Position numbers and translations under genes: made by a program
Notes under the pieces: model-generated
Database searches by the model: none
What the model saw: the letters and a program-made list of their open reading frames with translations, nothing else
Told to the model about the DNA's origin: nothing
NCBI RefSeq assembly: GCF_019649055.1
Contig: NW_026570349.1
Span: 62,001-126,000 of the forward strand
DNA: 64,000 nt
Reading direction: 5' to 3'
Source: Paramacrobiotus metropolitanus
Lineage: Eukaryota; Tardigrada; Eutardigrada; Parachela; Macrobiotidae
In this document: piece after piece, positions 13,060 to 58,542 of the stretch
How positions within the stretch are numbered: the first letter of the stretch is position 1
Layout of the letters: every line of letters starts with the position of its first letter

Positions 13060-13249
13060 GATGATAATATGTTCTGCTCGACAACCGTTAACAAAACATC
13101 TAACCGTATTTCACATGCAGTTGAAAGTGATCAAATGATTTCGATGAACGCAACTAAAATTCCTCATGGCTCAACTGCAACTGGCCAGCACAAAAACCCG
13201 CAATTTTGGCGATGCAGATATTCGAAAAATGATTGCTGCTGTCCATCAG

Positions 13250-21949: not shown

Positions 21950-21953
21950 GTAC
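21950..21953. repeat. Target-site duplication (left copy)
   Basis: GTAC here and GTAC at 42276-42279 flank the two LTRs. Four bp is within the usual 4-6 bp range for LTR elements. Confidence 0.8.
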
Positions 21954-22520
21954 TGACGTATGGGAGTAGGATCATACGCCGGATGTACGTACGGATGCTG
22001 ACTGTCCGCCTTTCACCTGCAACACAACGGATAATCTAGTCAATCAATGCTGTGATTTGCTGTTCTCTTTTACTAGCGATGTACATGATGTCATAACGCA
22101 AAGTCTATATAAGTTCTTGTTACTTCTAATATCGGAATCGGTAGTCTGAGATTTACTTCTGAGACTGCTTTCTAATTACGATTTCCTAGCGTTGTGAACT
22201 GTGATGTGAATTGGATAAAGAGACAGCAATACTTGTTCCTACTGAAGTGCATAGTTGTTCCCGGATTATCGCTTAGTATACAGGTTTGCTCGTGACACAA
22301 TCGTCCTAGCTCTTGCCGATCCTCACAGGACTTACGACCGGAAGTTGTGGTTAGCGTGTTCCTGAGGGATTCCTGAGTTCCTGATTCGTTCGTCCTATTT
22401 CCACCATAGTTCTTCTGTTACAGTTTGAGAGTACGAGTGCCTACCGATTGAGCATTACAGGCGTGGAAGAGTAAAGATTGTTCATGGAGCCTTAATCGGC
22501 GTGAACGCTTATACACGACA
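21954..22520 (+). repeat. 5' LTR (567 bp)
   Basis: It begins TGACGTATGG and ends CACGACA, with a TATA box TATATAAG at 22106-22113 as the likely promoter. Compared by eye with the 3' LTR, the only difference is two instead of three copies of the 8-bp unit GAGTTCCT, near 22375. Confidence 0.93.
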
Positions 22521-22537
22521 TGGCGCCCACCGGTGTC
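22521..22537 (+). promoter_or_regulatory. Primer-binding site
   Basis: TGGCGCCCACCGGTGTC starts directly after the CA end of the 5' LTR. TGGCGCCCA is the start of primer-binding sites complementary to tRNA-Lys type 3' ends in retroviruses and gypsy elements. The rest does not match that tRNA well, so the exact primer tRNA is uncertain. Confidence 0.7.
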
Positions 22538-23312
22538 TTTTAATTTTCCCGATGTAACTGAAAATTATTGGTGGAACGTTTGATGGTAATTTATTGGTAA
22601 AAAGTGGTCCGTTTTTGAAAGGCGTCGAACCGCAAAGGTACGCCGAAGGAGGTCAGCGTTCCCGATCTGGCCTAGTTTAATTTATTTTCAGCGAGCTTCC
22701 TCGCAATTGTGAGCTTCCTCACTGGTGAGCTTCCTCGCCAATTAAATTAATCACTTAATTTAAATTGGACCGTAGGAATTAAGCAGTCGAAACCTTAAAG
22801 GTCGGCTGTGCTAAATAAACCAGTACTGTGTGGGTAATTTCCGGGTTGTCTGCGCAAAGCAGTAACCGCGGTGAATAAAGCGTAATCTGCAGTGTCAGTG
22901 TACCTGGCCTGCAGATAGAGCAGATAGTAGGCACCGAGCCATTGTCAGTGGCCAGGTGAGATAACGATCTCCAGCAGACTGATATAGGCAAGCCGCAAGC
23001 GGTAGCCAAAATCAGCAGCTAGAGAGAGTTCACTGTGAAAAAAGGTAAACACCGGTAGACGGTGATTGACCTGTGAATTTTAAATTACTGTAGCACGCAA
23101 AGTGCAGCAGTGTAATTTTAGGAATTTGTTACAGTCGAAACCGCAAAGGTCGACTGTCAGTAAACTATCACTGAACAATTCAAACCTAAAAGGAGGATTG
23201 GGAAGTGACGTAGTAGTAATTGCACAATTGCAATTTCGGAAGCAGTAGCACAATCGCTGCTGTACGTAATATTGTAAATAGCCGCAAAGGTTATTTAAAA
23301 TAAAAAGCAGAA
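22538..23312 (+). promoter_or_regulatory. Leader with repeated hairpin motifs and possible splice donor
   Basis: There is no ORF. The motif CGAAACCGCAAAGGT or close variants recurs near 22627, 22787, 23135 and 23281. At 23132-23156 it sits in a hairpin (CAGTCGA pairing with TCGACTG). At 22784-22808 the same hairpin recurs with one G-U wobble (CAGTCGA with TCGGCTG). Three copies of GAGCTTCCTC lie at about 22690-22735. Such leader hairpins could be packaging or dimer signals. AAAAAAG/GTAAAC at about 23045 is a candidate splice donor for downstream ORFs. Confidence 0.5.
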
Positions 23313-26300
23313 ATGTCGGGCGGTTCGATTCCTAGAAATCGCCCACCACCGCGTAAAGTCCCAGACAACAAAGTGATTATTGGGGCGTACGATGGATCGA
23401 GAGCTCAGACAAGGTTCAAATTCAATGCAAAAGAAATCCCGCTGAATTTAATGTACATCGCTCTTAATGTCGAACCACCAGAAGCACAAGATGCATTCTG
23501 TGGAAAGTCATGGATTGACTACCAGGAAATCAGGCGGTACTTAAATTCCAAAACGAGATTACCAGCACATTTTAAACCTTGGATTGAGTACGAGGGATGT
23601 ATCCCTGAAGCTTACCTGGACATCACTGATGAGCAGTTTAAAGTGGCTGTGCAGGATGCAAACAGGTGGCTGCCAGAATACACGGAAGATTTGAATAGAC
23701 GAAGAGAGGCGGCCCAGGCTGCACTCACAGCGTCAAAAGCAACCGGAAAAACTCCCAAAAAACAGGCAGCAAATGAGCGCGTCACGCGCGGTGCCAAGGA
23801 GAGAATTCCAGCCCAGGTATCTGGTGCGATATTGGACGAACCCATATCGGAAACTCCAAGCGTGGCCGAGAGCCAGACAGAACCCCAGTCGTCCCAGTCG
23901 GACAATAACTTGATAGCGTTGTCGGCTGCGGATAAAGCGGACATATCCGAGGGATCTGAAACAAGAGCAAGTAAAAGCATTCGCGGTGGAACGATGACAT
24001 TCCACCCGGCACAGCTAAAACTTCATAGCTTCGTGTCCGAAAAGGATTTCGAACAACCTGATGAAGACTTCCTTACTCAAGCTAGGGAAGTCGATGAGCA
24101 GTTGGCTGCGGCAGAAACTGACCAGGACGTGGGCTTGATAGTCCGGCAAACTATGCCCGTGTTGATCCAAAGTCTCCGCACGCTCATCGCATCTACAAAA
24201 ACAAAAGTAGATGAAATGGGCAATTCAACGTCTTTAGACGCTCGTGTCGATGCGGAACGAAACGAAAAATTGAGATTCCAAAACGATTTCAATGAGATGC
24301 GTGTTAAATTCGAAAATGAACAAATAGAAAATGAAAGATTGGCTAACGAAATACGTATTGCGAATGATAATTTGCACAGTCTAAGACAAGCCAACAGAAA
24401 TGCGGAAGCCGCGTTTAATGCAATGAAAGATGAGCGTGATACTTTAACAGACACGAATCGTAATTTTGAAAAGCAGTTGGAAGACGCTCAGAGAGACCTT
24501 TCAAACGCGAAAGCTACGATTGATGGCCTCAGTGCGCAACCAGCACCGGATTTAACGAAACAAATAACTGATTTGAATCAAAAGCTGTCGAAAGCTCAGA
24601 AAGATTGTAATTCTGAGAAAGATGCGCATAAAGTAACTAATAAAAATTTGACGGATGCGCAGAACCTGGTCACAAAACTCACCAAAGATTTGGAAGATGA
24701 AAAGAAACGGGCTAAAGATGCGGAAGACTCTCTACAGCGTGAACTCACACAAGCGAGAGTGCAGCTGAATAACAAGTCTTCGGTTGGCCCGATGCATATT
24801 CCCAAGGAAAAGGATGATGCGTCCCAAAAGGAAATTGAGAGGTTGCAGGGTTTGTTGAATACAGAGCGAGAGAATGTTCAAAAGGCCCAAAAGGAATTAA
24901 AAGACTCGAAAAAGGACAAAAGATGCGATAATTGTGAGAACGCGATTCAAGCGAAATATACAGCACAGGCTGACGCTTACGAAAAGTCCGAAAGGTGTAA
25001 TCGGCTGTATGAAGAAAATGCGCGATGCCGAAAGGAATGGCATGAAAAACAAGACCAACTTACTAAGATGGAAATGGATCTAAAGCAAGCGTTTGACGAA
25101 CTTCGTCGGCTTCGAAATACAGATGCTGTTCTTGGCGGCGGTGAAGGATACTTTCAAAGGGAAGCGCCGGTAGCATCAGGAGATGTATTACGCCCTCCCG
25201 CTTTTACACCATTTAATCCCCAAAATTTCTCGTCATACGTGGATCAGCCCTTAGCTACTGGTAGTAATCCAGCTGGCATCTTGCGGAGACCTAGACAGGA
25301 ATCACGAGTCGAATTCTCGGAGGCTCAGGCCATACCGCGTTCATCGTCAGAAAGTCAAATTCCAAGGGAAACAGCATCTGCGAAACAGAGGAAGAATGGC
25401 TCAACAGATTTACGCCAACAAATTCTAAAACGAACAGCTGACGAATCTAGTCGCCAGATGCGAGGAACAGAAAACAGAGACAGTTCTGATACAGAAAATG
25501 AACTGATGGATGATGCCCTAATGGAGGATGAACACCGTCGCCCCAGTAGCACGGCCAGCAATGAGTCTATGTCTAGAAATCCTCAGCTGGAGGAATGGCT
25601 AAACAAACAGACCCAAATTTCGGATAGAACGACGCTTACACAAGAAAGCGTTGTTGAGCTTTTAGCGAAAATTGTGGAAAAAGACAGCGATAAAACGGTA
25701 GGTGGCATGAAGTTACTTGCCTTTGATGACGCTCATCCGGAAAAAATTCAAAGATGGCTCATGAACGTTGAACAATGCAGAGCCACGAATAACTGGAATG
25801 ATGAGACAACGTGCCGCAGAGTAATCGGTGCATTCACTGGTCCGTCTTTTCAATGGTTCGAAAAATTTTGGAAGGATAATAAAGGCAAATCGTGGCCTGA
25901 CTTCTTTAAGCCGGCTATTGTTGAGCACTTTAACGGCTCTCTCTCTAGAGCCGACATTCGTAGGAAAATGAATAATCGCAAATTAGAATTTTACGAACCA
26001 GTTCGCGCTTACCTGGATAGTTTCCTCCCATGGTTCGAAGAATTGAAAACATCGGATGAAGAGCAAGTGGAAGCACTTCTTGACGGCGTGCAGGAGCATC
26101 GACCGGCGTGGTTCCGAGAAATTTATAATGCGGCACCTAAAAATTATGCGGAATTTGAAAAGAAGTTACAGGAATGTGAAAAACTGTGGAAGCGCATGAA
26201 TAAAGATAAAAAGGCACCTGAATCAACTCAGAGAAATGCCCCTGCAGAGCCCAGAAGCGCCGGAAATAATAATAATTATTCGAATTATGAAAATCGAGGC

Positions 26301-29300
26301 GGCCGCGGTGGCTCGTCTCAGAGAGGAAATTATTATTCGAACCGGGGAGGCCGCGGAAATTACGGCAATAATCGAGGCGGATACTCCCGCTCGTACACGG
26401 AAACGGTGATTCCGCAGCCGCAGAATTCGGTGGCTCCAATCCAACCTGTCCTGAATGTTCCCCAGCCGCAATTTGTTCCAGTTCCGGTGTATTCACAACC
26501 ACCATTCGTTGAACAACACCCGGTACAATTTGCCCAGACCTTCCCGCAACCTATTCCCATGCAGGCTCCTATGCCTGTCCCAGTCCAAATGATGAATCCA
26601 ATGATGCCGGTTATGCAGCCGCAATTCCAACAACCGGTACCGAATTTTGATCCACAGTACCAACAGAATGGCCCTGCGAATAATAACAGTTATGATGGCG
26701 GTAATAATCGTGGAAATTACCGAAATAATAATAATAATCATCGCGGACGAGGTGGCTATAATAATAATAATAATCGTCAGCAAAATAACCAGAATTACCG
26801 GCAAAATCAGCAGGCCGGTAGTCAGCCTCCGTTTGATGAACGAAATATCCTGAAGGATAAGTGGCGCACAAACCGCGGAGTTGAAATTTGTTTCCGCTGT
26901 CATGGTCTCCATCCGGCTGCAGGTTGTACGAACCAGTTTGTACTTCCTCGTCAGTATGAACCGTCTGCAGAATTATTGGCTAGGTACAACAACCCGCAAC
27001 AACAAATTAATATGATGGAGTTGGATTTACCTGCTGGTTTGTCCACGCCGCCGCCACAGTGCAATAAAATGGAAGTACAGGATTTTTCGCAATATCCGTT
27101 GGCAGATCACGTTTGTTTGTTGCCGACGCTGGATGCCCAGGCATGGTATTCTGTTATTGACATAAATTATCAGAAAGTGAAAACCATGCTGGACACTGGC
27201 TCTAGCATTTCTGTTATGTCTTTAAAAATGGCGAAGGATTTAAAATTAAATATTCACCGCTGTCCTGATCACATTAAAGGCAGGGTTGTACATACAGCTT
27301 ACCAAGGGAGACAGCTGATTGAGCCGTTGTCGGTAGTGGTCACAATCCACGAATTCGGGATGGCTTTTGAGCACGCAATGCTTGTGAGTTCCACTTTCGA
27401 TAGGGACCACGTTGTTTTAGGTTTAGACTTTTTAGCTACCAAGCCTTTTATCCTGGATATGAACACCATGACGTGGCGTCTCTCGCGTAGACAGCCTAAT
27501 GCACCGGTATTTTTACGTCGTGAAACTCACTTGATGTCGGACGTCATTAGGTCACACGATTTTGATCCGTTAATTCCTGTGGGAGTTAAGCCATCCCCTG
27601 CAATCCCTGCGTTGATGTTGACAGAGCGCATCGGTGTCGCTAAAGAAGCAAAATTCGTACCGTATGAGTCAGCTCATTTAATTCTAGCAAAGGCTGATCC
27701 AGAAATTTGTATTCTGCACTTACAAAAGGCTAAGCAGGAGTGGCCGCGTCCAGTCCCGTCGCCACCAGTCACAAAAGCGGTTGATGTCCCGGTGAAAACG
27801 GAAGCTAAAGAAACTACATCAGTTCAGGTAGCCCCGATTAAAAAGGGATCTGACCAGCGTGATGAAGAATTTGTGCGCAGTGTAGTACAGGAGATGATTC
27901 GTCAATATCTCCCTAGAGCAGCTTCCGTCGCTGATGAACCAGTTCGTCCTGTAATTAAACAAGAGATTAAAATAGGAAAAAACCCAGAACCAAGTCAAGT
28001 TCGTGGGGGAGGCGGTGAGACAATCGTAAATAGTATGCAGTCAAGTTCGCGGGGGAGAGAACAGGCGTCTTCCCAGCCGCCAATTAAAAAGGAAAAAGTT
28101 GTTCAGCCGTCACCGGCAAGCACTCCGCGTACCTCACCTTCGGCATCGATTAGTCCTGTGCCTAATTCTGGCTCCAGTCAAGTTCGTGGGGGTGACGACT
28201 CCCTGCAACTTCCGATTCAGATTTCTTCTGTGGACGCAGTATTGAAACAGCATCCTGCAGCAAAATATCTATACATGGGAGTTTTGGAGAAATCAGCGAA
28301 GGTGGTCGAATGTCTTAGTATGGATAACAAATTGCTTAATATTATACCTGTTGAGCGCGACCGCAGAGACGTAGATGAAGTCCACGATTATCCGTCTTTC
28401 ATGGCCCGGAATCCAGAGCTGAAAAAGTGGATGACGCCGATGGACAGGCCACAGGATAAACAGCTGTTCCCTTCAGAAAAAAGATTCCGTGACCCACAGT
28501 TTTGGCGTGAAACTCAACAGCAGTGCGTCGATAGCCGGATGTGGTACAAAATGTACAAGAAACCATCGCACGCTAATACGAATTTTACCAAATACGAAAT
28601 CAACAGATTTGTGATTTGTGAAGGGATATTGTGCAGAGTACCTGATCATTCTGGTGCATGTCCGAGAATTTACGTGCCGCACCAATGGCGACAGAAATTA
28701 ATCGCCTGCTTCCACGAAATTTTAATCCATCGGCAAGCGTACGGCCGGCACGAAAAATTATATCCGTACTTAGTAAAGTTGTTTTACTGGCCAGATTGTA
28801 TTATAGAAATCGAACGGTACGAAAAGAACTGCGACGTGTGTCGGAACTCGATTAATGACCGTCGGCATTTTGAAACGATTAAAAGAAATGAACAGTTGGC
28901 CACACAGAAAGCTACAGGAAAACGTAAGGTTACCTTTTCCGTGGACAATCCAGCTCCCGCAGGAGAATTTGAAAATGGTAGCTTTGTCCCGGCAGATGGC
29001 ATGAAACCCATTAACATCGGCCCGTGTCCGGTCTCCTTCGAAGATAAACAGGCGGAGAAGCAAAGGGAAATAAATTCTCAAATGATTGGTAACTCACCGC
29101 CGCCGAAACCGTCTGAGTTTGTCTCGGAGGATGTCAGAGCGACCTATGACGTTGCGACAAAGGTTAATATTAATGAACAGTGGGAAATCTGGAATGACAT
29201 TCAGAAACAAAAACTATTGAGCGAATCTGCAGCTGCTAATGCAGTACAACCCACCGTAGGAAATTACGAACCATCACCGGAAGGTTCGGGAAGGAGTTCT

Positions 29301-29933
29301 CCTCGGCGTAAAAAGTCCAGTTACAGCCGCAGAATTCGGCGGGAATACGCAGCAAGAGAGGAATACGCATCTGAACCAGTTGCGCCGTTGGCCAGTGATA
29401 CTTCGTCAATTACCTGTAATGCAATGGAGATTGGGCCGGCGCAGCCAGCAAAAACCTGTTTTGCAGTTGTAGAAGACAGAACTCTCCCAGTCCCGCCTTG
29501 GGCACGCCCAATTGAGCAGTTCTGGCCACAAGGCGTAACATCAGATGACGCCCTTGATAAGCAGGAATTCTGGAGGTATCGCCAGATGGAGTGTAGTGAC
29601 ATGATGTTGTGGGACGCCGTTGTTGATGGAGATTGCACTCTTGAGGAATCTGCATACGCGGCCCGGCATCTTCCTTTAGTTCTAAAAGTAAAAGGCATGA
29701 TCTGCCATTACGGCGAAAGAGAGGATATCCAGAAGAGAATCCCTAAAATTCTGATCCCGTTTCAATGGCGTAAGATATTAGCCGAATCAGTACACCGTCG
29801 GTTACTTCATAAGTATGGTAGTGCCATTTCGCCATATGATTACTTATATAAACACCTTCGGTTTTTCTGGCCTGAAATGAAGTCTGATTTAGCGAAATTT
29901 TGCCGGATCTGTACCTTATGTAACCTGGATTAA
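23313..29933 (+). CDS. Element ORF1: Gag-protease polyprotein with two integrase-type H2C2 modules, 2206 aa
   Basis: The ATG at 23313 is the first after the leader, in AAAGCAGAAATGTCG. Reading along the protein: unknown N-terminal part (1-300); long coiled coil (about 305-600); Gag-like core (about 760-960, with RWLMNVEQC, WFEKFW and FFKPAIVEHF); Arg/Gly/Asn-rich RNA-binding region (970-1180); CCHC-like knuckle CFRCHGLHPAAGC (about 1193); retroviral-type aspartic protease with active site LDTGSSIS (about 1293) and the partner motif VVLGLDFL; linker; first H2C2-like module (about 1766-1846, ending CDVCRNS); charged linker; second module (about 2123-2206, ending CRICTLCNLD). Each module is preceded by a related segment with FWRETQQQC or FWRYRQMEC, so the whole unit is duplicated. 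In Ty3/gypsy integrases this zinc finger is followed by the DDE core; here the frame stops instead. The Asn runs come from AAT repeats. Confidence 0.9.
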   Translation: MSGGSIPRNRPPPRKVPDNKVIIGAYDGSRAQTRFKFNAKEIPLNLMYIALNVEPPEAQDAFCGKSWIDYQEIRRYLNSKTRLPAHFKPWIEYEGCIPEAYLDITDEQFKVAVQDANRWLPEYTEDLNRRREAAQAALTASKATGKTPKKQAANERVTRGAKERIPAQVSGAILDEPISETPSVAESQTEPQSSQSDNNLIALSAADKADISEGSETRASKSIRGGTMTFHPAQLKLHSFVSEKDFEQPDEDFLTQAREVDEQLAAAETDQDVGLIVRQTMPVLIQSLRTLIASTKTKVDEMGNSTSLDARVDAERNEKLRFQNDFNEMRVKFENEQIENERLANEIRIANDNLHSLRQANRNAEAAFNAMKDERDTLTDTNRNFEKQLEDAQRDLSNAKATIDGLSAQPAPDLTKQITDLNQKLSKAQKDCNSEKDAHKVTNKNLTDAQNLVTKLTKDLEDEKKRAKDAEDSLQRELTQARVQLNNKSSVGPMHIPKEKDDASQKEIERLQGLLNTERENVQKAQKELKDSKKDKRCDNCENAIQAKYTAQADAYEKSERCNRLYEENARCRKEWHEKQDQLTKMEMDLKQAFDELRRLRNTDAVLGGGEGYFQREAPVASGDVLRPPAFTPFNPQNFSSYVDQPLATGSNPAGILRRPRQESRVEFSEAQAIPRSSSESQIPRETASAKQRKNGSTDLRQQILKRTADESSRQMRGTENRDSSDTENELMDDALMEDEHRRPSSTASNESMSRNPQLEEWLNKQTQISDRTTLTQESVVELLAKIVEKDSDKTVGGMKLLAFDDAHPEKIQRWLMNVEQCRATNNWNDETTCRRVIGAFTGPSFQWFEKFWKDNKGKSWPDFFKPAIVEHFNGSLSRADIRRKMNNRKLEFYEPVRAYLDSFLPWFEELKTSDEEQVEALLDGVQEHRPAWFREIYNAAPKNYAEFEKKLQECEKLWKRMNKDKKAPESTQRNAPAEPRSAGNNNNYSNYENRGGRGGSSQRGNYYSNRGGRGNYGNNRGGYSRSYTETVIPQPQNSVAPIQPVLNVPQPQFVPVPVYSQPPFVEQHPVQFAQTFPQPIPMQAPMPVPVQMMNPMMPVMQPQFQQPVPNFDPQYQQNGPANNNSYDGGNNRGNYRNNNNNHRGRGGYNNNNNRQQNNQNYRQNQQAGSQPPFDERNILKDKWRTNRGVEICFRCHGLHPAAGCTNQFVLPRQYEPSAELLARYNNPQQQINMMELDLPAGLSTPPPQCNKMEVQDFSQYPLADHVCLLPTLDAQAWYSVIDINYQKVKTMLDTGSSISVMSLKMAKDLKLNIHRCPDHIKGRVVHTAYQGRQLIEPLSVVVTIHEFGMAFEHAMLVSSTFDRDHVVLGLDFLATKPFILDMNTMTWRLSRRQPNAPVFLRRETHLMSDVIRSHDFDPLIPVGVKPSPAIPALMLTERIGVAKEAKFVPYESAHLILAKADPEICILHLQKAKQEWPRPVPSPPVTKAVDVPVKTEAKETTSVQVAPIKKGSDQRDEEFVRSVVQEMIRQYLPRAASVADEPVRPVIKQEIKIGKNPEPSQVRGGGGETIVNSMQSSSRGREQASSQPPIKKEKVVQPSPASTPRTSPSASISPVPNSGSSQVRGGDDSLQLPIQISSVDAVLKQHPAAKYLYMGVLEKSAKVVECLSMDNKLLNIIPVERDRRDVDEVHDYPSFMARNPELKKWMTPMDRPQDKQLFPSEKRFRDPQFWRETQQQCVDSRMWYKMYKKPSHANTNFTKYEINRFVICEGILCRVPDHSGACPRIYVPHQWRQKLIACFHEILIHRQAYGRHEKLYPYLVKLFYWPDCIIEIERYEKNCDVCRNSINDRRHFETIKRNEQLATQKATGKRKVTFSVDNPAPAGEFENGSFVPADGMKPINIGPCPVSFEDKQAEKQREINSQMIGNSPPPKPSEFVSEDVRATYDVATKVNINEQWEIWNDIQKQKLLSESAAANAVQPTVGNYEPSPEGSGRSSPRRKKSSYSRRIRREYAAREEYASEPVAPLASDTSSITCNAMEIGPAQPAKTCFAVVEDRTLPVPPWARPIEQFWPQGVTSDDALDKQEFWRYRQMECSDMMLWDAVVDGDCTLEESAYAARHLPLVLKVKGMICHYGEREDIQKRIPKILIPFQWRKILAESVHRRLLHKYGSAISPYDYLYKHLRFFWPEMKSDLAKFCRICTLCNLD
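28182..28197 (+). promoter_or_regulatory. Internal polypurine-tract copy with LTR start
   Basis: GTTCGTGGGGGTGACG is identical over 16 bases to the junction of the 3' polypurine tract and LTR (41690-41705). Two related G-rich copies lie at about 27999-28009 and 28045-28056. It is embedded in the ORF1 linker (SQVRGGDD). Confidence 0.5.
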
Positions 29934-32522: not shown

Positions 32523-33162
32523 GGACTTTTGCCGATCGGCCGTTCGTGTGCTTAAATTGCGGTTTGAGATTTAACTCTGTATGAGCCCTTTTGTTAAATC
32601 CCTGCTGTTCTCTGCCTTTTCTGCGTTCTTTCTTTTTGATGTCTTAGTGTGGCACGCTTAATCCAGTATAATTTTACAGCTGCCGCGTTTTGAATGTTTG
32701 AATGAGTGTTGTTTTGCTCTCCTCCCAGTTGTGATCGAGCCCATCGTTATGGCTCTGTTTTCCACGAATTTTGTACTGATGGAATGATCTGTAATTTTAT
32801 AGGCTTTAAGTATTTTGTGAAAAGGAATTAAAAACCTGTGGAAGTTACGATTTTGCGTGTTGAAAGTGGTGAAATGTCGAGCGTATATTCGTTTAATACA
32901 CACACTCGAGCGAAATTGTTGACGGTGCTAAGAAGTGTTGCTGTAATACACACGCTCTGCTGTAGGCCGTGTGTTAATGGACTTCGCTGGTTACGAAGTA
33001 TGCGGTCGCCGTGTGTGGGCGGTTGTCAGAATCGTAATCTGAATGTATCCCAGTTGGTAATTTTGTTAAAATCCAATCGTTTGCAGTTTTCTGTGTTTTA
33101 TTCTGCTAAGTTGAGCCGTGTAAACCTTGCTCAGAGGGATTTGAGATATAGCCCTTATCACT
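32523..33162 (+). other. Spacer between ORF3 and ORF4
   Basis: No gene is supported. The frame at 32838-33179 lacks a good start and any recognisable pattern. TTGCTCAG near 33132 is a possible acceptor for the next ORF. Confidence 0.4.
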
Positions 33163-33345
33163 ATGACTCCGCCAGCTAATGAGAAGAAGAAAGCGGCCAA
33201 GCAGGCGCTGGAGAACCGTGTCTCCACATGGACGGAGACAGTCGCTCAGAAGATGGCCGAGCGCACTGAAGCCCAGCAGCGTTTCGAGCGTGGGAGAATT
33301 GCCGTCAAGGAGGCTGTATCCAAGCTCCCTCCTAAGATTCCTTGA
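33163..33345 (+). CDS. Element ORF4: small Lys/Glu-rich helical protein, 60 aa
   Basis: It starts MTPPANEKKKAAKQ and is almost wholly Ala/Lys/Glu/Arg, which predicts one long helix, perhaps a coiled coil. It has no homologue in the window. It is short enough to be chance, but the clear ATG and biased composition favour a real product. Confidence 0.4.
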   Translation: MTPPANEKKKAAKQALENRVSTWTETVAQKMAERTEAQQRFERGRIAVKEAVSKLPPKIP

Positions 33346-33884
33346 TGTGGCATTATCTGGCGGACTTTTCGATGTGGATTTCGCCACTATTGTTAGAATG
33401 TTTGGTATTTTGTACGGAATGCCTGAAACATCGCTTCACGTCTATGATCTCCTTGCCTTCATTCTTTTATGTGTACGCTCATGCCTCTTTGGAGATCTCA
33501 TATTGTAGATTTGGCGCAGCGTTTTATCTTGTATTTTTATTGTTTTGCGGTTAGTTTTCTTCGTTATTCAAGGTTGCGTTTCGCCATATGTGTTGTACAC
33601 TGTTTAGCTGGTACATTATGGTTTTTGCGCTTCGTTCCGCAAGGCACTTTTGTTGTTTAGTTACTATGCGAGTTGCGAGTTTAATAAAGCAAGAGTAGTT
33701 ACCGTCCGTGCTGTCTGTCGGTAATTTTAGGGCAATCTAATGCATAACCGCACGAGGATACACTTTCGTTAGGATGTTGTACTGGTTTTCATGCAGCTGG
33801 TCACTAGGGTGGGTAGGTCACAGGCACATTCACTATTGCCTAGTGTTCGTGTACGTTTTTGGTGCTGACGTTTGTCCAATATTT
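33346..33884 (+). other. Spacer before the tRNA-like array
   Basis: The sequence is T-rich and hydrophobic-coding, with no supported gene. It leads directly into the first tRNA-like unit. Confidence 0.4.
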
Positions 33885-33992
33885 TACGTAGAGCGACCCC
33901 GCTAGTATAGTAGAGGCTTCCGTTGCTTCGTCATTGGAGGTCGGAGGTTCCAGCCCACATAAAAACGCGATTTTCTAAATATCCTCATTTTT
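33885..33992 (+). ncRNA. tRNA-like unit 1
   Basis: An A-box-like TAGTATAGTAG is at 33903-33913, a B-box-like GGTTCCAGCCC at 33946-33956 and a T run at 33988-33992. This is the most degenerate 5' member of the array, and I could not draw a full cloverleaf. Confidence 0.45.
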
Positions 33993-34120
33993 GGTTTTTA
34001 TTTCATGAATCGTTATATTTTTATTCGCGGGATTTAATATGAGGAATATTGGTTGAATCGCTGTTGAGAGGTGTTAAAATGAATACTGCAAGCGGTGTTT
34101 TTAACATTATTTTTGTCGAT

Positions 34121-34240
34121 GACTCCTGTAGTCGAGTGGTCCAGTAAAGAGGACAATACCAGGCGAATCCGTTTACCTGTTGCTGGTCCTGGGTTCCAAT
34201 CCCTAAAAGTTTAAAAGCATTTTCATAAAACCTTCTTTTT
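34121..34240 (+). ncRNA. tRNA-like unit 2
   Basis: The A box TAGTCGAGTGG (34129-34139) fits the Pol III consensus TRGYNNARNGG. The B box is GGGTTCCAATCCC (34191-34203), and the unit ends at ACCTTCTTTTT (T run 34236-34240). A GTCC/GGAC hairpin follows the A box. Confidence 0.6.
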
Positions 34241-34370
34241 CGTGCTTAAATTCTTGCATTTAGTTGTATTTACACATTCGGTGTGATACCGTTAATTCCT
34301 TATTAGTTTTCAACGAGCGGCACATAGTTGTACAGCCCTTACCGTGCGGATTTTCGTATTTTGCTGTGAG

Positions 34371-34481
34371 ACTTCGTAGTGTAGTGGTTGTCCGCCTTAT
34401 CCCTGCGACTACTCGGTGAAGTTAGGGCCTTGGGTTCGAAACCCCTACAAGTAATGCACATTTTCATACACCTTCTTTTTT
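34371..34481 (+). ncRNA. tRNA-like unit 3, with acceptor-like stem
   Basis: The A box is TAGTGTAGTGG (34377-34387) and the B box GGGTTCGAAACCC (34432-34444). The ends pair as an acceptor-like stem: ACTTcGTA (34371-34378) with TACAAGT (34446-34452), seven pairs with one bulged C. ACCTTCTTTTTT ends the unit (T run 34476-34481). The D arm is poor, so this is tRNA-like rather than a normal tRNA. Confidence 0.65.
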
Positions 34482-34575
34482 GCTTTTTATATGGTAAAAG
34501 TAGCATCAAATACGCGTTGCCGTTGACCGTTGTAATTTTACGATCATTTCCGATGAGCGAATTTAAAAGTTACTG

Positions 34576-34696
34576 TCGTAGAACAGCGTAGTATAGTGCT
34601 TTGCACCGTTGAACTGCAGCAACGGGGAAATGAAACGGTTGCGGGTTCAAGTCCCTTACAGCTAATTTGCAATTTTGACAAACTTACCTTTTTTTT
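34576..34696 (+). ncRNA. tRNA-like unit 4, with anticodon-arm-like hairpin
   Basis: The A box is TAGTATAGTGC (34589-34599). The hairpin CCGTTG/CAACGG spans 34606-34625 with an 8-nt loop. The B box is GGGTTCAAGTCCC (34643-34655), followed by a run of eight T (34689-34696). The hairpin covaries with that of unit 7. Confidence 0.65.
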
Positions 34697-34842
34697 CGTT
34701 TTACATTTTTGTTCTCGTCCTGGGAAAAGTATTGACAAATAGCTCCCAGAATATTAGAATTAAACTCAAAGAGCTGGGTGTAAAATTGTATATATACTCA
34801 ATGGTTAACATTGCACTTGGCCGTCTGTTTGTCTGTATTCGA

Positions 34843-34955
34843 ATGACTTTGTAGTTCAGTGGCTATGAATGACGGCCATTCGCCCCATGTTCTACCTCCT
34901 AAACGGTTAGTCTTAATCTCAGGGTTGCATGCTGCATGTTAAAAACTACATTTTT
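34843..34955 (+). ncRNA. tRNA-like unit 5, degenerate B box
   Basis: The A box TAGTTCAGTGG (34852-34862) fits the consensus. GAATG/CATTC forms a short hairpin at 34867-34881. The B box position is only weakly preserved (about 34917-34932). T runs lie at 34951-34955 and 34967-34974. Confidence 0.45.
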
Positions 34956-35030
34956 CCTGCCCTATATTTTTTTTGTACCTTTGTGGGATGAAGAGTTAAT
35001 CGTTTGGTGCCTTATTGCAGTAAGGTTAAA

Positions 35031-35056
35031 TATACACGACATGGCGCTTCCGGTGT
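35031..35056 (+). repeat. Internal copy of the LTR-end/primer-binding-site junction
   Basis: TATACACGACATGGCGC (17 identical bases), then CCGGTGT, repeats the sequence at 22510-22536 that joins the 5' LTR to the primer-binding site. It lies in the array between units 5 and 6, in the same orientation. Confidence 0.7.
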
Positions 35057-35083
35057 TGAATCTAACTCGGCTTTAACGTAGAG

Positions 35084-35191
35084 CACCTTGTGGCGTAGTG
35101 GCTAGACTGAGAATCCATACCGACCCGCTTCTCCCAAGTCTAGAGTTCGAATCCCTAAAAGTTAATTCGTGTAATTTAAAACCTTCTTTTT
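35084..35191 (+). ncRNA. tRNA-like unit 6, with long hairpin
   Basis: The A box is TGGCGTAGTGG (35091-35101) and the B box GAGTTCGAATCCC (35143-35155). Between them CTAGACT plus GAGAA (35102-35113) pairs with TTCTC plus AGTCTAG (35129-35143), a 12-bp stem with a 3-nt bulge, replacing a normal cloverleaf. The unit ends ACCTTCTTTTT (T run 35187-35191). Confidence 0.6.
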
Positions 35192-35283
35192 CGGTTTTAT
35201 ATTTTTATATCAATATGCAGTATTAGGTTGGCTTCGAGATCGCTAATTTTCCGGTCACTCCCGACGAGCGAATTTTAAGTCTA

Positions 35284-35405
35284 ACTTCGCAGATTGTAGT
35301 GGCGTAGTGCACTGAACTGTTGAACCACAACAACAGGTGCAATGAAGGTTGCGGGTTCGAAACCCCTTGAAATTAAAATTGCATTTTCTAACATCCTACT
35401 TTTTT
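35284..35405 (+). ncRNA. tRNA-like unit 7, with anticodon-arm-like hairpin
   Basis: The A-box-like TGGCGTAGTGC is at 35300-35310. The hairpin CTGTTG/CAACAG spans 35317-35336 with an 8-nt loop. The B box is GGGTTCGAAACCC (35353-35365) and the T run is 35400-35405. It is closely similar to unit 4, and one stem pair is changed on both sides. Confidence 0.65.
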
Positions 35406-35534
35406 GTCTCTATGTTTTTACTGTCACTCTTGTGGAAATATTTCCGTTGTCGGCGTGAATTCTGCGATCATGATGGTGGTGAAATCTTAAAACTTATCAG
35501 CTGCTGCAGCGGTGAATTGTTACTATATCGTGAA

Positions 35535-35700
35535 TTTTCGTAGTACAGCGCCTCCAGTGATTGCCAAATTAAAAGTAAAATGTGGTATAGCCATGCTAGC
35601 GTATGGGCAAGAGCAGGATTTAGTTGTCCACCTAGATGCAAGGTTCAATCCTGCGTGAATACAAATTTTGCAAGTTTTAAACGTTCCTTTCAATTCTTTT
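35535..35700 (+). ncRNA. tRNA-like unit 8
   Basis: The A-box-like TAGTACAGCGC is at 35541-35551 and the B-box-like AGGTTCAATCCTG at 35641-35653. GCAGGAT (35613-35619) pairs with ATCCTGC (35648-35654), enclosing the B box region. The insert between the boxes is longer than in the other units, and the terminator is weak (CTTTTTA near 35695). Confidence 0.45.
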
Positions 35701-36119
35701 TACTTTTCCTTGGTGGTTTCTGTAACCTTGTTCCCAGGATGGAATATTACAATTGTTTTTAGCATCTGATTCACGGTTCCTGGTGTGATAATTGATTTTA
35801 AGCTGCTAATTTCTCACTCTGCACTGGAATTCACTGTTGTTACGGTTGCGCATTCTGTTACACCGATTTTATTGCGGTTATTCAAATGCTGCATAAATCC
35901 AAATTAAAAACCCGAATTAAGATCTGTCTGACCAGCAAAATTAATGACTATATGAGAATCTGTACGGAATTATGAGAATTGCCTGTTAAGACATTGATGA
36001 GATCAACTCAACGAGATTAAAAGATTAAACGGAAGAAACAAAAGTCGGCCGAAAATCAGATTCAAATTATCAAACAGCCGCGGGAAACGCATTATACGCA
36101 TACGTTACAGCGCTGCTAT
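35701..36119. other. Spacer between the tRNA-like array and the antisense gene
   Basis: AT-rich sequence with no gene or clear repeat. It should include the 3' UTR of the antisense gene. Confidence 0.4.
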
Positions 36120-37525
36120 TTAGTCCAGATCTAGATTCTCCTTCGCAGTCTTCAAGTTCGCAAGACGTTGTTCCAGCGCCTCACGGATATATGCGATATG
36201 TTTAGCATCCATCGTCGCTCGAGCCTTCAGCGTATTTACCAGCGCCTTGCAGTTATCCATAATTTCCTTCTCGCGTTCAACTTGTTCTAGTAATTTGTCG
36301 ATTGCGTCTGGCTTCTTAATGGCATCCGGTTCTGCAGTGCTCACTTCATTGTCAGGCTTTTCGGCCTTCTCTTTGGTCTTCTGGCCTTTCTTTTCGGTAT
36401 CCGTATTCTTTGATCGGGGGACATATTTAGGACGGCCGCCCATAGCTTTTAGTTGAGTGAGCGTGATAATTGGTTCTCTCTCAATACGCCCGTCCTTGCT
36501 TGCCCGGATTACCAGATTTACGTTGGTGGTGTTGTTCTTCTCGGGCTCGATTGCGTCCAGCCGCTCCATGACGCCATCGACAACCAAATCCCCGTCTTGT
36601 CCCACGTAACCAAAGCTGCAATCGGCGACATGCTGTTTGGTCTCCTTGCCGTTTACGATAACCTTCATGGTGCCCATTTTGATATCTGCAAAATACGTTA
36701 TTTTCATAGAGAGTACGATAAGTTGCAGCATGTAGAGTGATTTTACTTTCAAATGGAATTTCACACAATCAAATAAAGCAAATATTCGTCGCATATTTCT
36801 GTCTTGGACTATTTCCTAACCGAAAATACGTAATACATACTGATGGTCTGGGCCAGAGTGGTGCAGAGACAGCAGCCGCGAATGCTTCGTAGCCACAAGT
36901 CGATGCAACTATCCACGAAAAGATTCCCATACACGACGACGACATGTTTCTGGTTAACCAGTTGGCGCAGCCCGCGCTCCAGCCAGTAGTCCACGTCCTG
37001 CAGGTGTACGTCGAACGTACAGATCCAGTGTTGGATTTCGGTGCGTGACATGGCGTATCGACCGTGGTAGAGGATTACGCGAATCATCCGACGAAACTTG
37101 CTAGTTGTGTCGATTACCTTCGTCTCTGGATCGCGGTTATTTTTCACTTCCTCGGCCACCTCGAGCACGAAACGTCCATCGCGGCTCATCTTCTTGAGCA
37201 AGATACCAGCGTTAATAGCGTCGCCGAGGAAGAAGTCTACTCGTTCTTCCGTGAAATCATCATGCATTTCCACAACGAATTTCTTGATAGATGACATGTC
37301 CACATAATATCCCGTAATGTCAGCTTCAAGAATGCACGCGTGGGCTGCCGTATGCATCGCCAATTGTCGACGGTCTCGGATGGTTTTGTTTGGCTGCAGA
37401 GGCTCTGCCATGGCAAACTGAACTGATTCGCGAGTTCGTCCCTTCCAGTATTCATAGTGGGCAATCGCATCTGTTTCGGGCGAAGGTAACGGCTCTCCAG
37501 TTGGCCCCACAGGCTGTGCTGACAT
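36120..37525 (-). CDS. Antisense spliced gene inside the element, 416 aa, 2 exons
   Basis: Exon 1 is 37525-36841 and exon 2 is 36685-36120. The donor GTATGT and acceptor TTTTGCAG are strong. The 685-nt exon ends in phase 1 and exon 2 continues in the correct frame (IKMGTMKVIVNG), giving 416 residues. Exon 1 contains two similar segments (IKKFVVEMHDDFTEERVDFF and EIQHWICTFDVHLQDVDYWL), each followed by a strand-turn-strand pattern, suggestive of two winged-helix modules. Exon 2 is Lys/Glu-rich with a coiled-coil end (LLEQVEREKEIM). I do not recognise the family. Antisense extra ORFs between pol and the 3' LTR are known in some large Ty3/gypsy lineages, but no sequence link is claimed here. Unspliced, each exon is an independent ORF. 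Confidence 0.65.
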
Positions 37526-38130
37526 GATGCTCGGATGATTAGAAGTGATTAAGATAAAATTCGGCGAAGAGAAACAAGCTAGTAATTAAATGAAACAGAA
37601 AACCCGTCACCGCGAAAGGATAAATATTGTTGGGTTCCTCGCTTTTTATGAATGAACAGCTGATATTCTCTGTGCTTGCGATGCGGCATTCTGTCACTTG
37701 CCAGCCGCCCTGATATGGCAATGCTATCGGAAACTGCGCAGTCTCTGGTCTGTGTCTTGAATATTTCCCAGCCGCGTGTTTTCATTCGGACTTTCCTTTT
37801 TCGTATCCCTTTAATTGTCATGATCCGTTTGTTGTATTAAAATCCGGTTTTTGTGGTGGATATTTACAATCATCGGCGAATTAATTCGGTTCCTGTGTGT
37901 TCTACGCCACATGATCATAGTGGGGATAAAATTCGCAAAAAACGCTGGTCGCCTGTCAACCGCCTGGTGGTATACTTCGTGAATTTTCAGTTCTCGGTGT
38001 CGGTGCCAGTCGAAATTGTCTGTTGTGCTTTTTCCCTGCACTCCAGTTCTTCAATTCTCTGAATCTGTTGGCATCGATAGTACCCTGTTTTCCCTGTGTT
38101 TTTATAATTTATCATTTTCACGTTTTGAGA
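37526..38130. other. Divergent spacer between antisense gene and ORF5
   Basis: Probably the promoter region of the antisense gene. On the plus strand it is a pyrimidine-rich leader of ORF5. No supported coding sequence. Confidence 0.4.
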
Positions 38131-41700: not shown

Positions 41701-42275
41701 TGACGTATGGGAGTAGGATCATACGCCGGATGTACGTACGGATGCTGACTGTCCGCCTTTCACCTGCAACACAACGGATAATCTAGTCAATCAATGCTGT
41801 GATTTGCTGTTCTCTTTTACTAGCGATGTACATGATGTCATAACGCAAAGTCTATATAAGTTCTTGTTACTTCTAATATCGGAATCGGTAGTCTGAGATT
41901 TACTTCTGAGACTGCTTTCTAATTACGATTTCCTAGCGTTGTGAACTGTGATGTGAATTGGATAAAGAGACAGCAATACTTGTTCCTACTGAAGTGCATA
42001 GTTGTTCCCGGATTATCGCTTAGTATACAGGTTTGCTCGTGACACAATCGTCCTAGCTCTTGCCGATCCTCACAGGACTTACGACCGGAAGTTGTGGTTA
42101 GCGTGTTCCTGAGGGATTCCTGAGTTCCTGAGTTCCTGATTCGTTCGTCCTATTTCCACCATAGTTCTTCTGTTACAGTTTGAGAGTACGAGTGCCTACC
42201 GATTGAGCATTACAGGCGTGGAAGAGTAAAGATTGTTCATGGAGCCTTAATCGGCGTGAACGCTTATACACGACA
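41701..42275 (+). repeat. 3' LTR (575 bp)
   Basis: It is identical to the 5' LTR by eye, except for one extra copy of the 8-bp unit GAGTTCCT. The TATA box is at 41853-41860. It is flanked by the target duplication GTAC at 42276-42279. Confidence 0.93.
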
Positions 42276-42279
42276 GTAC

Positions 42280-43165
42280 TGACGGTTGCTGAATATATCG
42301 TCAAATACGGATGCTCTCTAACCTGACTCTACGGAAGCATTCTTGATTAGAATTTAGAAACAACAAGATGCAGGACATTATCAGAGAGTCCTTTTAAATT
42401 AACTATAAACGTTTAAATTGGTAGGGTTTTCAGAGTAAAAATGCAAAATCGTGTAAACGCTAAAAATAAGCAAACTGTAAACTGATAAACTTAAGCAAAC
42501 GGCGTTTAAGTTTAGCAGTTATTAAAGGAATACTGCGGCAGTTTTAGAAACTCTGAACGCGCATCCTAAGACAACGAGCAACACTAACGATTTTGGTTAT
42601 TTTTCAATGTTTAAATAAGTCATTTTAATTAGTTTCCAGTGCGCAGGCAATTTGTTATGTTTGGTGGCTACTGCCAAATAAAATAAATAACAGTAAGTTT
42701 GTGAAATATACAGAGCAGTTTGTCGAATTAACGAATATTTACTTTCAATGCGACGACTAAACCTAAAGTTTTTGTGAATAGGAGAAAAGCAGCGGCCTCA
42801 TTTCTTACGATCGCCGCTTCTAGATGGTGGTACAGTGGTTCTGTACGCTGAAATAAGCGTTTCCCATAACGCCCATTAGGATGTTCACGCAGCATGGCGC
42901 AATTCATATCCGTATTCCTACTGAAAATTAAGCAACAACTGCAGTGCTTCAGCACAGCTGCTGCGTTTTCGCATTGTTACGCAGACTCTGGCTTCGGCTC
43001 AACAACCGGCTTTTTGGTTTTTCTTTACTGTATGTTTTTTGACCAACTCCGAATACATATATTCGGCGTTTTAACTTTCAAGCGAACGCAAAGTCAATAC
43101 CAGCATTAATTTCCTGGATATCCAGCACTCTTGCCCCGCGGTTATTACAACTGTACAGGAGAAAA
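42280..43165. promoter_or_regulatory. Spacer and conserved upstream region of family B copy B2
   Basis: About 42890-43130 resembles 48815-49050 upstream of B3 (TGGCGCA then TTCATATCCGTATTC and AAAATTAAGCAA). It is therefore the inherited promoter/5' UTR region of the family. No TATA box is obvious. 42280-42890 is AT-rich with no gene. Confidence 0.45.
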
Positions 43166-44177
43166 ATGTGCAGGATTCTCAATCAGCGCCGCTTGGAGTA
43201 TTATCTGAATCCTCAATACGACAAACGTCCACTATACTCTACAGGTAAATATCAGCAGCGAAAACAGCAATTGGCGCGATGCAGTGATGCTGCCAATGCT
43301 TTCCATCTTCAGGTGACGTCGTTTGGGTTTATGCTTCACCACCGGGCACGGATATCTGGCTGATCTACGAGGCCAAGGTAGGTATTAAATTACTATGTAA
43401 CCCCAACATTTTCGAAACTGTTAGCAATAGAGAAAAAAATTTTTTAAGCTTTTTGACGTTGAATTGACAGGTTAGCAAATTGCTTACGTTGTCGTCGCGC
43501 TATCGTGACGAACAACTGGAAATGGAACCTTGTTTGCCGATGTACGAAGTGTCACTGCCATGGTTACTGTAAGCTCTATACCATCTTTACTTCTTATTTC
43601 AAGCTACACAGTCAGTTTTACGTCATGAAAATGATTTTCCCTTTTTAATATTAACAGATCAGAACCATTGGTGCGCGTAACTGACGTGTTCTTCGAGAAC
43701 CACATGTACAATCGACAGCGGCTGACGGCCGAAGAGATGCTGTGCATTATCGGCGAGAACAATCAGATTGTACTGTATGTTTTCCCAGCCCTCTGTTGTC
43801 TTGGTGTACTGTATTATGAGTTGTCGTGCATCCCTGCTTTTGTTGTAGAAGCGATTTGTCCGAGGCGGAACGACTATTGGTCCCTCGTGACGGCTTGGTG
43901 TTCCTGGGCACCTCACAGATGGCCGCACTACGGGACTATGTCGCTAAGTATGGCGTGACCTCTACAGAATTTCTCACGATAGCGCGTAGTATAATAGATA
44001 ACGTTTGCTGTTGCTTTCAGAACGGGCGGAATGACGGAATCCGAGCATACGAACTGCTGCGACTCGGATTCGGAAATCGACTGCAGTCTTTCTGTTACAG
44101 CGACTTGTCCAGAGTCACCTGTACGAGTGCATATACTGTACTTCCCGCAGTTCAACAGTCGATGCTATCAATTATAA
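43166..44177 (+). CDS. Family B gene B2, variant without zinc finger, 204 aa
   Basis: Exons are 43166-43244, 43313-43377, 43471-43568, 43658-43774, 43849-43947 and 44021-44177; the phases agree. It begins MCRILNQRRLEYY, has the Tudor-like VVWVYASPPGTDIWLIYEA and LVFLGTSQMAALRDYVAK as in the other copies. After GMTESEHTNCC the sixth exon runs on into foreign sequence (resembling 19428-19500) and stops at 44177. The two last family exons, including the C2HC finger, are missing. If expressed, it would make the N-terminal part only. Otherwise it is intact. Confidence 0.6.
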
Positions 44178-48810: not shown

Positions 48811-49078
48811 ACTCTTGGCGCAGTTCGTATCCGCATTCTTACGGAAAATTAAGCAATCATTTGTTGTCGGCCTTGGCTCAGCGCAGTTGCTGCGTTTCGT
48901 ATTACTACGCAAGCCCTGGCCTCTGCACGACAACCGGCCTTTTTATTTTCTCGTCATATTATTCAGCCAACTTCGAATGTCTGTTCGGCGTTTTGCCTTG
49001 TGAGTTCAGCAACCCCGGCAAAGTTAATATCAGCATTAAATACCGGACATTCAAGCGCTTCTTGCTCCGCGGGAGAAA
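48811..49078 (+). promoter_or_regulatory. Conserved upstream region of family B copy B3
   Basis: It resembles the region before B2 (42890-43130), including TTGGCGCAGTTCGTATCCGC and the segment just before the ATG. Probably promoter and 5' UTR. Confidence 0.45.
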
Positions 49079-51360: not shown

Positions 51361-51919
51361 AGATTTCTTTAATTTCGTCAAACATATTTTCCTGTGATGG
51401 ACTGTCGTAGAAAATCTTACGTTTGACGCTTGAACTCGCCTATACACTACAACATTCCTCTCACGTACACATAACACACTCAACAAAAATTATCACATCA
51501 AGAAAATGTTGAATGAGATTTGCCGAATGAAAGTTGTTCGAAAGGTGCGGATTATAATTTCAACACAATAATTATACTAATAAGAGAATCGCAACGCAGC
51601 TGCAACAACCTGAAATCCCGGACGTCGACTTGCTAATACACTGTAAGTATTCATATCCAAAGCCGGAGACAATGTCGGTTTATTGTTCACCCGCACTGCG
51701 CCAACCATATATCCTGGTTCCCATGGCATCTGCAGTTTTAATTTTACGTTGCTTTTTGCTGACTCTGAATGCTGCTGTTTAACAACCGTCTGCAGTCCGT
51801 TTCTTGATCATCGTTATCGCAATCAACAGGCTTTAAAAATCTGTGCGTCGTACTGCAGCGCGTTAAAGCGTCTGAAATTTCAGGTGTTCCTCGGGTTTCC
51901 CCGTTAAACTAGAGCAGAA
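51361..51919 (+). promoter_or_regulatory. Upstream region of family B copy B4
   Basis: It is shared with the region before B6 (about 57660-58540), including GGTGCGGATTATAATTTCAA and CCCATGGCATCTGCAGTTTT. Probably promoter/5' UTR. No gene. Confidence 0.45.
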
Positions 51920-55115: not shown

Positions 55116-55203
55116 CGCGCAGACAAGTTAAAACATCAGCATTAATTTCCTGGGTATCCAAGCTCTTCTTGCCCCGCGGTCACTACAATCGATGCAAGAG
55201 AAA

Positions 55204-58199: not shown

Positions 58200-58542
58200 A
58201 GATATAAATCAAATGAAGAATGCCGGTTTATTGTTCACCCCACATTGCGCCAACCCTATATTCTCGTTCCCATGGCATCTGCAGTTTTGTCTCTGCCGTG
58301 CCTTGCTGGTTTCGGTTGTCTGTACCGGCGTATTGCCTGCGTTGTTTTTTTTTGCTTTGACCCGAAATGCTGTTTAACAACCAGCTTGCTCATTATCGTA
58401 ATCGTTTCCCATTATCGTTTCTTGCTCATTATCGGCTTTAAACATTCTGTGCGTCGTACCGAGCAACGCGCTTAACGCGTCTGGAATTTCACGCGTTCCT
58501 CTGGTTTTCCAGTTACAGTACACAGTGTACACTGGAGCAAAA
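58200..58542 (+). promoter_or_regulatory. Upstream region of family B copy B6
   Basis: It matches the region before B4 (51690-51919), with TTGTTCACCC, GCGCCAACC and CCCATGGCATCTGCAGTTTT. Probably promoter/5' UTR. No clear TATA box. Confidence 0.45.

Follow-up and report, generated by a model that had tools for sequence, protein, structure and literature searches.

A tandem cluster of tRNA-like RNA polymerase III-type units within giant Ty3/gypsy-type retrotransposons of the tardigrade Paramacrobiotus metropolitanus

A giant Ty3/gypsy-type LTR retrotransposon family of the tardigrade Paramacrobiotus metropolitanus, present in dozens of copies, carries a cluster of eight tRNA-like units which, judging from their sequence, probably encode short non-coding RNAs made by RNA polymerase III (Pol III) and likely to act in trans. 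The cluster lies in a 64,000-nucleotide stretch of contig C129 (the window, to which all coordinates refer), and the genome searched for its relatives comprised 169.8 Mb. An HSP70 fragment encoded on contig C83 of this genome matches a P. metropolitanus protein with 100% identity over 539 aa, which makes this tardigrade the host; nematode SL1 was not found, in a search whose control gave no match either. The original prediction had described a set of Pol III-type units in a giant LTR element whose transcripts could serve, among other roles, as primers or as small RNAs, and had cited the microRNA hairpins of murine gammaherpesvirus 68 (MHV68) as a known case. The first part of this reading held up, whereas the primer role and the MHV68-type microRNAs did not.

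The array and the element that carries it

The array occupies positions 33903-35670 and consists of eight units, each with an A box followed by a T run; a B box within two mismatches is present in seven of the eight, where five or six good ones had been predicted. The A boxes start at 33903, 34129, 34377, 34589, 34852, 35091, 35300 and 35541, and their spacings of 226, 248, 212, 263, 239, 209 and 241 bp agree exactly with the predicted 209-263 bp. All units are on the + strand and, when each is taken from its A box to the end of its T run (the first T run in units 1 to 5 and 7), unit 1 is at 33903..33974 with its B box at 33946, unit 2 at 34129..34223 (B box at 34192), unit 3 at 34377..34464 (34433), unit 4 at 34589..34676 (34644), unit 5 at 34852..34955 (without a B box), unit 6 at 35091..35191 (35144), unit 7 at 35300..35387 (35354), and unit 8 at 35541..35670 (35642). 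The layout of a type 2 Pol III gene, namely internal A and B boxes and a downstream T run, is seen in all of them except unit 5, for which none of the 32 aligned rows having that stretch, the window included, has a B box within two mismatches. In units 1 and 6 the B box stays within one mismatch in no more than 20 of 34 rows and 15 of 32 rows, respectively. When an A box, a B box and a T4 run were taken together as a unit, seven were counted in the array, whereas 1000 dinucleotide shuffles contained 0.054 on average and never more than 1. Counted in the same way, the + strand of the window has none in its other 62 kb, LTRs included, the - strand has none either, and none was found antisense in the 40 arrays scanned.

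As had been foreseen, the units are not normal tRNAs. No tRNA was found in the window by ARAGORN or, at the gathering score, by cmscan with Rfam, and cmscan of 33000-36600 with E values of up to 5 gave only two antisense snoRNA matches, which were far below the cut-offs. A cloverleaf recognised by tRNA models, as in cellular tRNA genes, is not seen in the units, nor did RNAalifold find a common cloverleaf when it was run on each unit. When fold energies were examined, no unit was better than its own shuffles (z from -0.49 to +0.75), and microRNA hairpins were rejected on this absence of a folding signal. In single-sequence folds, units 4 and 7 form a stem of 6 bp between the boxes that closes a loop of 8 nt, the size which the original prediction had given for the anticodon loops. 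Antisense targets of the units inside the window did not reach significance, the best E value being 0.066.

The carrier of the array is a Ty3/gypsy-type LTR retrotransposon of 20.3 kb (21954-42275), which confirms the predicted location inside a giant LTR retroelement. Ty3/gypsy elements are defined by LTRs, a short target site duplication, a primer binding site (PBS) for a tRNA, and the pol order protease - reverse transcriptase (RT) - RNase H - integrase. In the window copy the 5' LTR (567 bp, 21954..22520) and the 3' LTR (575 bp, 41701..42275), both on the + strand, have the ends TG...CA and differ by one 8-bp indel and 0 mismatches, and the 4-bp target site duplication GTAC stands ahead of the former at 21950-21953 and follows the latter at 42276-42279. 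Because the LTRs are nearly identical, this copy looks recently inserted. The PBS (22521..22533, + strand) is complementary over 13 nt to the CCA end of the host tRNA-Lys(CUU), 30 of the 60 listed tRNA loci having been examined, and a pattern search for the PBS tRNA gave 19 matches compared to 17 in the control. The primer role that had been offered for the units is not supported, because host tRNA-Lys(CUU) matches the PBS and the array lacks a complement of the PBS; the longest exact match there is 10 nt and comes from the non-tRNA part.

An open frame of 2209 aa (23304..29933, + strand) encodes an aspartyl protease and H2C2-type zinc fingers, along with coiled-coil-like and Ty3-capsid-like stretches that are both below cut-off. 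No protein homologues of the capsid-protease part were found at E 0.001, and no RT or integrase core was found in the window copy. About 4.0 kb that is present in the C180 copy (L078) is missing from the window copy at 29352/29370, and since this segment holds the RT, the RNase H and the integrase core, the pol order given above is seen in the C180 copy and not in the window copy itself. Presumably the window copy moved in trans. Downstream of the array there are two overlapping antisense open frames of 231 and 258 aa (36120..37585, - strand) in which no Pfam family scored above cut-off. As for the size of the family, 11 of the 13 same-strand LTR pairs among the matches listed (42 matches; 40 of 181 candidates scored) span 22.9-24.2 kb, and the LTR pairs of the window copy and of C11 span about 20 kb.

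Other copies and the conservation of the units

The genome was searched for other copies, as the original prediction had recommended, and with unit 3 as the query 40 places were scored out of 49 candidates. One of these is the window and the other 39 (L039-L077) are further arrays, 33 of which belong by identity to the subfamily of the window (A) and six to a divergent subfamily (B). All 39 carry units, which is no independent evidence since the places were found by unit 3 itself; two of them are incomplete, L045 through a contig end and L049 through an internal deletion. No solitary copy that could represent a tRNA-derived SINE was seen, with 39 of 39 places outside the window lying in arrays, in a search that used unit 3 only, skips very common words and scored these 40 of 49 candidates. 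A check that is independent of the array as starting point was provided by an RT search, in which 105 matches were listed (1576 candidates, 103 scored). These fall approximately into identity groups of 94-98, 84-90, 66-70, 51-61 and 42%, with degraded copies between. At 38 of the 49 RT loci that are at least 94% identical, unit 3, the U5-end/PBS-like motif described below or the unit-6 core was found 5-12 kb downstream on the same strand, a count that rests on the matches listed and on element pieces merged by hand. Among the same matches, 11 of the 49 are without array evidence; two of these, C23 and C11, reach a contig end or nearly so, a third, C69, has been rearranged, and the other eight may lack the array.

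Two copies from the group with 84-90% RT identity (group C) were read, L087 (89%) and L088 (87%), and both carry arrays. Strict thresholds gave 3 A+B units on the + strand and 1 antisense in L087, and 2 and 0 in L088, with one of the + strand units lying outside the array. When the thresholds were relaxed and the sequences inspected by eye, at least five tRNA-like units, at about 165-250 bp, could be made out in each copy. The L087 array, used as a query at the DNA level, gave a single close copy, C13, and four partial copies at 71-75%. In L089-L094, three of which are from the 66-70% group and three from the 51-61% group, no unit was found at strict thresholds in 4 kb per copy. With relaxed thresholds the + strand showed between 0 and 5 A+B pairs, in scattered positions, and the opposite strand 0-1; two A boxes in L090 stand alone. 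In a tree of 48 units, drawn from eight arrays, the classes of units in A and B group according to position, with strong support for units 1, 3 and 8 and weaker support for units 2, 4, 6 and 7, and the group-C units do not join them. The set of units is older than the split between A and B because the classes of both cluster by position, and from the sequences a unit pair seems to have been duplicated again in subfamily B.

The mean pairwise difference among 34 subfamily-A rows was 0.059 in the A boxes, 0.082 in the B boxes, 0.085 in the bodies of the units and 0.154 in the spacers, and in the flanks it was 0.21-0.25. Boxes and bodies thus vary about half as much as the spacers, or less, and boxes that decay as fast as the spacers, the outcome which the original prediction had set against itself, are not what is found. 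When the mask of the boxes was shifted circularly, a difference as low was reached at a frequency of 0.0011 for both boxes, 0.0027 for the A boxes alone and 0.056 for the B boxes alone, the last of which misses the 5% level. Among 607 tiled 21-nt segments, the median one had an exact match to the window copy in 9% of the remaining rows, whereas the top 14 listed reached 90-97%; these are in the conserved cores of unit 1 (33919-33948) and unit 8 (35587-35631) and at the U5/PBS motif. Unit 6 has a near-invariant 21-nt core (35112-35132) that was found with up to three mismatches at 45 places genome-wide, of which 37 are exact, 4 have one mismatch, 0 have two and 4 have three, and only some of which were checked as lying in an array. 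This core is not kept in subfamily B.

We also asked how the folds between the boxes fare in the other copies. The hairpins given by the window sequence stay paired in 81-98% of cells compared to 19-73% when they are slid, the structure having been taken from one of the rows tested. Double changes in these hairpins do not clearly beat the slid controls (in unit 6, 5 pairs compared to 1-5 when slid), with units assigned by best score and a unit-6 set (n=47) that includes 16 from subfamily B, some of them probably of other classes. It is with moderate confidence that we regard the short hairpins between the boxes as retained across copies.

TTTT is the stop signal of Pol III, and it is nearly absent from the units of two subfamilies. 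Between the A and the B box of the 227 units detected in subfamily A it occurs once in 15,926 nt where 79.3 occurrences are expected from composition, and in the detected units of subfamily B once in 2,590 nt where 13.3 are expected. The rarity is strand-specific, since AAAA inside the units is close to expectation (53 compared to 52.7 in A and 10 compared to 8.5 in B). When boundaries aligned to the window were used for all eight units of subfamily A, TTTT was found 10 times in 19,049 nt of units and 1593 times in 38,203 nt of spacer. A substitution simulation over 254 copy-units gave 17.8 +- 4.8 TTTT compared to the 4 seen, a count so low that 1 of 300 runs matched it; for AAAA the simulation and the data agreed. 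The TTTT result is support and not a clean p-value, as the copies share ancestry. The window copy has no TTTT inside its units, which taken by itself is not significant (31% of dinucleotide shuffles likewise have none), and no avoidance is seen in the six units detected in group C, which have 3 TTTT in 395 nt where about 2.7 are expected. Behind the units, in contrast, a TTTT is reached no more than 60 nt after the B box in 226 of 227 units of A, 42 of 42 of B and 6 of 6 of C; T runs had been predicted after most of the units and in the window copy they are present after all eight. The near-absence of TTTT from the units of A and B suggests genuine transcription by Pol III.

These data bear on two other explanations. 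The units could be TFIIIC-binding sites only, in which case they would be kept for binding protein and not for any RNA and would act as an insulator or a chromatin tether, tDNA insulators being a known model. Conserved A and B boxes, the suitability of many tandem boxes for an insulator, folds no better than those of shuffles, and the lack of TTTT avoidance in group C are all in keeping with this, but binding requires neither the avoidance of TTTT inside the units of A and B nor a T run after nearly every B box, and it does not need near-invariant bodies; we therefore consider it unlikely. The units could also be a passive relic of tRNA-derived SINEs or tRNA pieces that entered a successful element once, were duplicated, and have simply been transmitted with it. 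They do resemble tandem duplicates, down to the unit pair seemingly duplicated again in B, unit 5 is without a B box and other boxes are weak, and the 11 RT copies without array evidence would fit as well. That boxes and bodies vary about half as much as the spacers, that the rarity of TTTT is confined to one strand, and that the 39 other unit-3 places are all in arrays makes a relic extremely improbable.

Transcription of separate short RNAs by Pol III would explain the boxes, the bodies, the T runs and the rarity of TTTT together, while TFIIIC binding alone, or a role of the array in the genomic RNA, explains only parts of this evidence. In the mechanism that we propose TFIIIC and TFIIIB would be recruited to the units, and each unit would be transcribed singly by Pol III, which would initiate some 10-20 nt upstream of the A box and terminate at the T run to give an RNA of about 85-145 nt. 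The likely product would be an RNA of tRNA-gene design, folded into a short hairpin over the body that separates the boxes and, in the case of units 1, 6 and 8, bearing a near-invariant core. As to function, the most likely role, which we put forward with low certainty, is that of abundant decoys or adaptors that would occupy tRNA-handling or small-RNA factors of the host while the element is expressed.

A copy of the LTR-end/PBS junction in the array

Between units 5 and 6 there is a motif that resembles the U5 end and the PBS (35026..35056, + strand), and within it 35031-35047 is an exact 17-nt copy of 22510-22526, the junction of the LTR end and the PBS. This copy in the array is a new observation and it is nearly invariant. 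The motif is present in 38 of the 40 rows of A and B, the exceptions being the truncated L045 and the deleted L049, and over 16 nt it is exact in 30 of 32 rows of A and in 1 of 6 of B, the other B rows having 1-3 mismatches. It is the longest low-variation run in the alignment of the arrays and the sole one outside a unit, if a unit is taken to begin shortly upstream of the A box and to end with the first T run. The A box that follows the motif, that of unit 6, is 59 nt away in 35 of 38 rows, 62 in 2 and 50 in 1. Genome-wide, the 16-mer of the motif was found with up to one mismatch at 120 places compared to 6 for a control, and many of the 100 places listed pair about 16 kb apart. The two group-C elements have a related motif upstream of the array that is partly like their own LTR end, so that likeness to the own LTR end is seen in three lineages (A, C80 and C9), weakly in C9; with up to two mismatches the group-C motif was found at 8 places genome-wide, its own place being the only exact one, compared to 2 for the control.

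In pairing with host tRNA-Lys the PBS-like part of the motif scored -21.6 and the PBS -30.9, and because of this weak pairing it is doubtful that the motif is a second functional PBS. Its fixed distance from the A box suggests instead an upstream promoter element or a decoy. Another explanation is that the whole array works within the genomic RNA, where the tRNA-like stretches and the U5/PBS copy would aid packaging, primer loading or strand transfer of an RNA of 20-24 kb. The exact and nearly invariant copy of the junction speaks for this, as does the related motif in the two group-C copies that partly follows their own LTR end. On the other hand, such a role needs no Pol III boxes, no T runs and no avoidance of TTTT, the pairing with tRNA-Lys is weaker than at the PBS, and in one group-C copy it is tRNA-Arg that pairs best with the PBS-like part (as scored on 22 distinct tRNA ends from 30 loci and not on the whole tRNA set). 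Misdirected strand transfer at the inner PBS-like site was rejected as well, as the two pieces read for it were an ordinary array and an ordinary LTR leader. Taken together, this makes a role in the genomic RNA very unlikely.

The motif can also be joined to the separate Pol III RNAs that we favour. It has been reported that 3' tRNA fragments can target retroelements (PMC7472051). The element might combine distinct trans-acting Pol III RNAs with the U5-end/PBS mimic in a counter-defence module, in which RNAs and mimic would sequester tRNA fragments or small RNAs of the host and keep them from binding the PBS and blocking reverse transcription, although as a whole this combination strikes us as rather improbable. 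Whichever way it falls, the mimic offers a second precise hypothesis, either of priming or of defence against tRNA fragments.

Relation to known Pol III gene clusters

To our knowledge, Pol III gene clusters in mobile genomes are known from a few viruses. If the array holds up, retrotransposons too can maintain small-RNA genes of their own, and the question is directly testable in P. metropolitanus, for which transcriptome work has already been published (PMC11191345). In the literature on Pol III or tRNA-like arrays in LTR elements, on tardigrade LTR retrotransposons and on viral Pol III RNAs, no title among the matches listed, in part the best 8-12, described such a retrotransposon array, and few subscription papers were covered; the main text of a paper on tardigrade transposable elements names neither P. 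metropolitanus nor tRNA (PMC11071193).

Among viruses, the array is like the TMERs of MHV68 in that eight Pol III units with tRNA-like promoters lie close together in one genome. TMERs are 200-250 nt long and have two pre-miRNA hairpins after the tRNA-like element (PMC4838037), whereas in the array a TTTT comes at most 60 nt after the B box, no prominent hairpin is seen, and the carrier is a retrotransposon and not a herpesvirus. Because no unit folds better than its shuffles and the TTTT comes so soon after the B box, the MHV68-type microRNA reading finds no support. Bovine leukaemia virus (BLV) shares with the element that a retroelement has a cluster of type 2 Pol III units, five in its case. 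The BLV units have the terminator between the A and the B box and one pre-miRNA hairpin each (PMC13192155); unlike these, the array has its T run after the B box, almost no TTTT occurs between the boxes in A and B, and the bodies do not fold into hairpins of unusual stability. Foamy viruses are a further case of Pol III RNAs encoded by a retroelement, and their RNAs are described as microRNA precursors that for one SFV are located in the LTR (PMC7693620, PMC7104284), whereas the units of the array are internal and not hairpin-like.

Among transposons, the TRIMp3 elements (Cassandra, Helenus and Ajax) are likewise LTR elements with Pol III promoters of small-RNA-gene type. They are non-autonomous, at most 1263 bp long, and have the small-RNA-derived sequence in their LTRs (PMC10886601), whereas no unit was found in the LTRs of the element described here and the array is internal to a family of 20-24 kb with coding capacity. 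The closest known systems are thus in principle the TMERs of MHV68 and the Pol III units of BLV, and among transposons TRIMp3, each of which is set apart from the array by a defining feature.

Probable mobility of the element and a possible tandem pair elsewhere in the genome

In the giant Ty3/gypsy-type LTR retrotransposon at window 21954-42275, the stretch from the reverse transcriptase to the integrase core is missing, and the two LTRs differ by one 8-bp indel only. That the LTRs are nearly identical despite this loss suggests that this copy was mobilised recently in trans. Two overlapping antisense open frames were called within the element at window 36120-37585 on the minus strand, and neither of them matched a Pfam family above the cut-off.

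On another contig of the P. metropolitanus genome, C96, the region from about 580 to 30810 holds the U5-end/PBS-like motif that lies in the array (window 35026-35056), a second copy of this motif 7 kb on, a third 16 kb further, and an LTR. The second copy is probably an LTR end with the primer-binding site (PBS), and the whole region looks like two elements in tandem that have one LTR in common.

Coding stretches and repeats around the element

To the right of the retroelement, an open frame of 687 aa at window 46684-48747 contains a reverse transcriptase domain (RVT_1, 1.9e-18) and perhaps belongs to a LINE-type element. Two protein kinase fragments in adjoining open frames at window 16465-18585 are probably exons of one or more host genes. 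The window also holds a multicopy family on the plus strand, with members at 13227-14013, 43163-44083, 49076-50026, 51905-53145, 55189-56117 and 58528-59588, whose pieces are about 60-97% identical and of which some copies carry a zinc-finger-like stretch; these copies may represent either a mobile element or a family of repeated genes.

HSP70 in the host genome

When the P. metropolitanus genome was searched for the HSP70 family, at least 88 exon-level matches were found, with 69 of the 130 candidates scored. These matches lie on contigs C13, C45, C72, C83 and others, with clusters on C13 and C72, and a large expansion of HSP70 in this tardigrade is likely.
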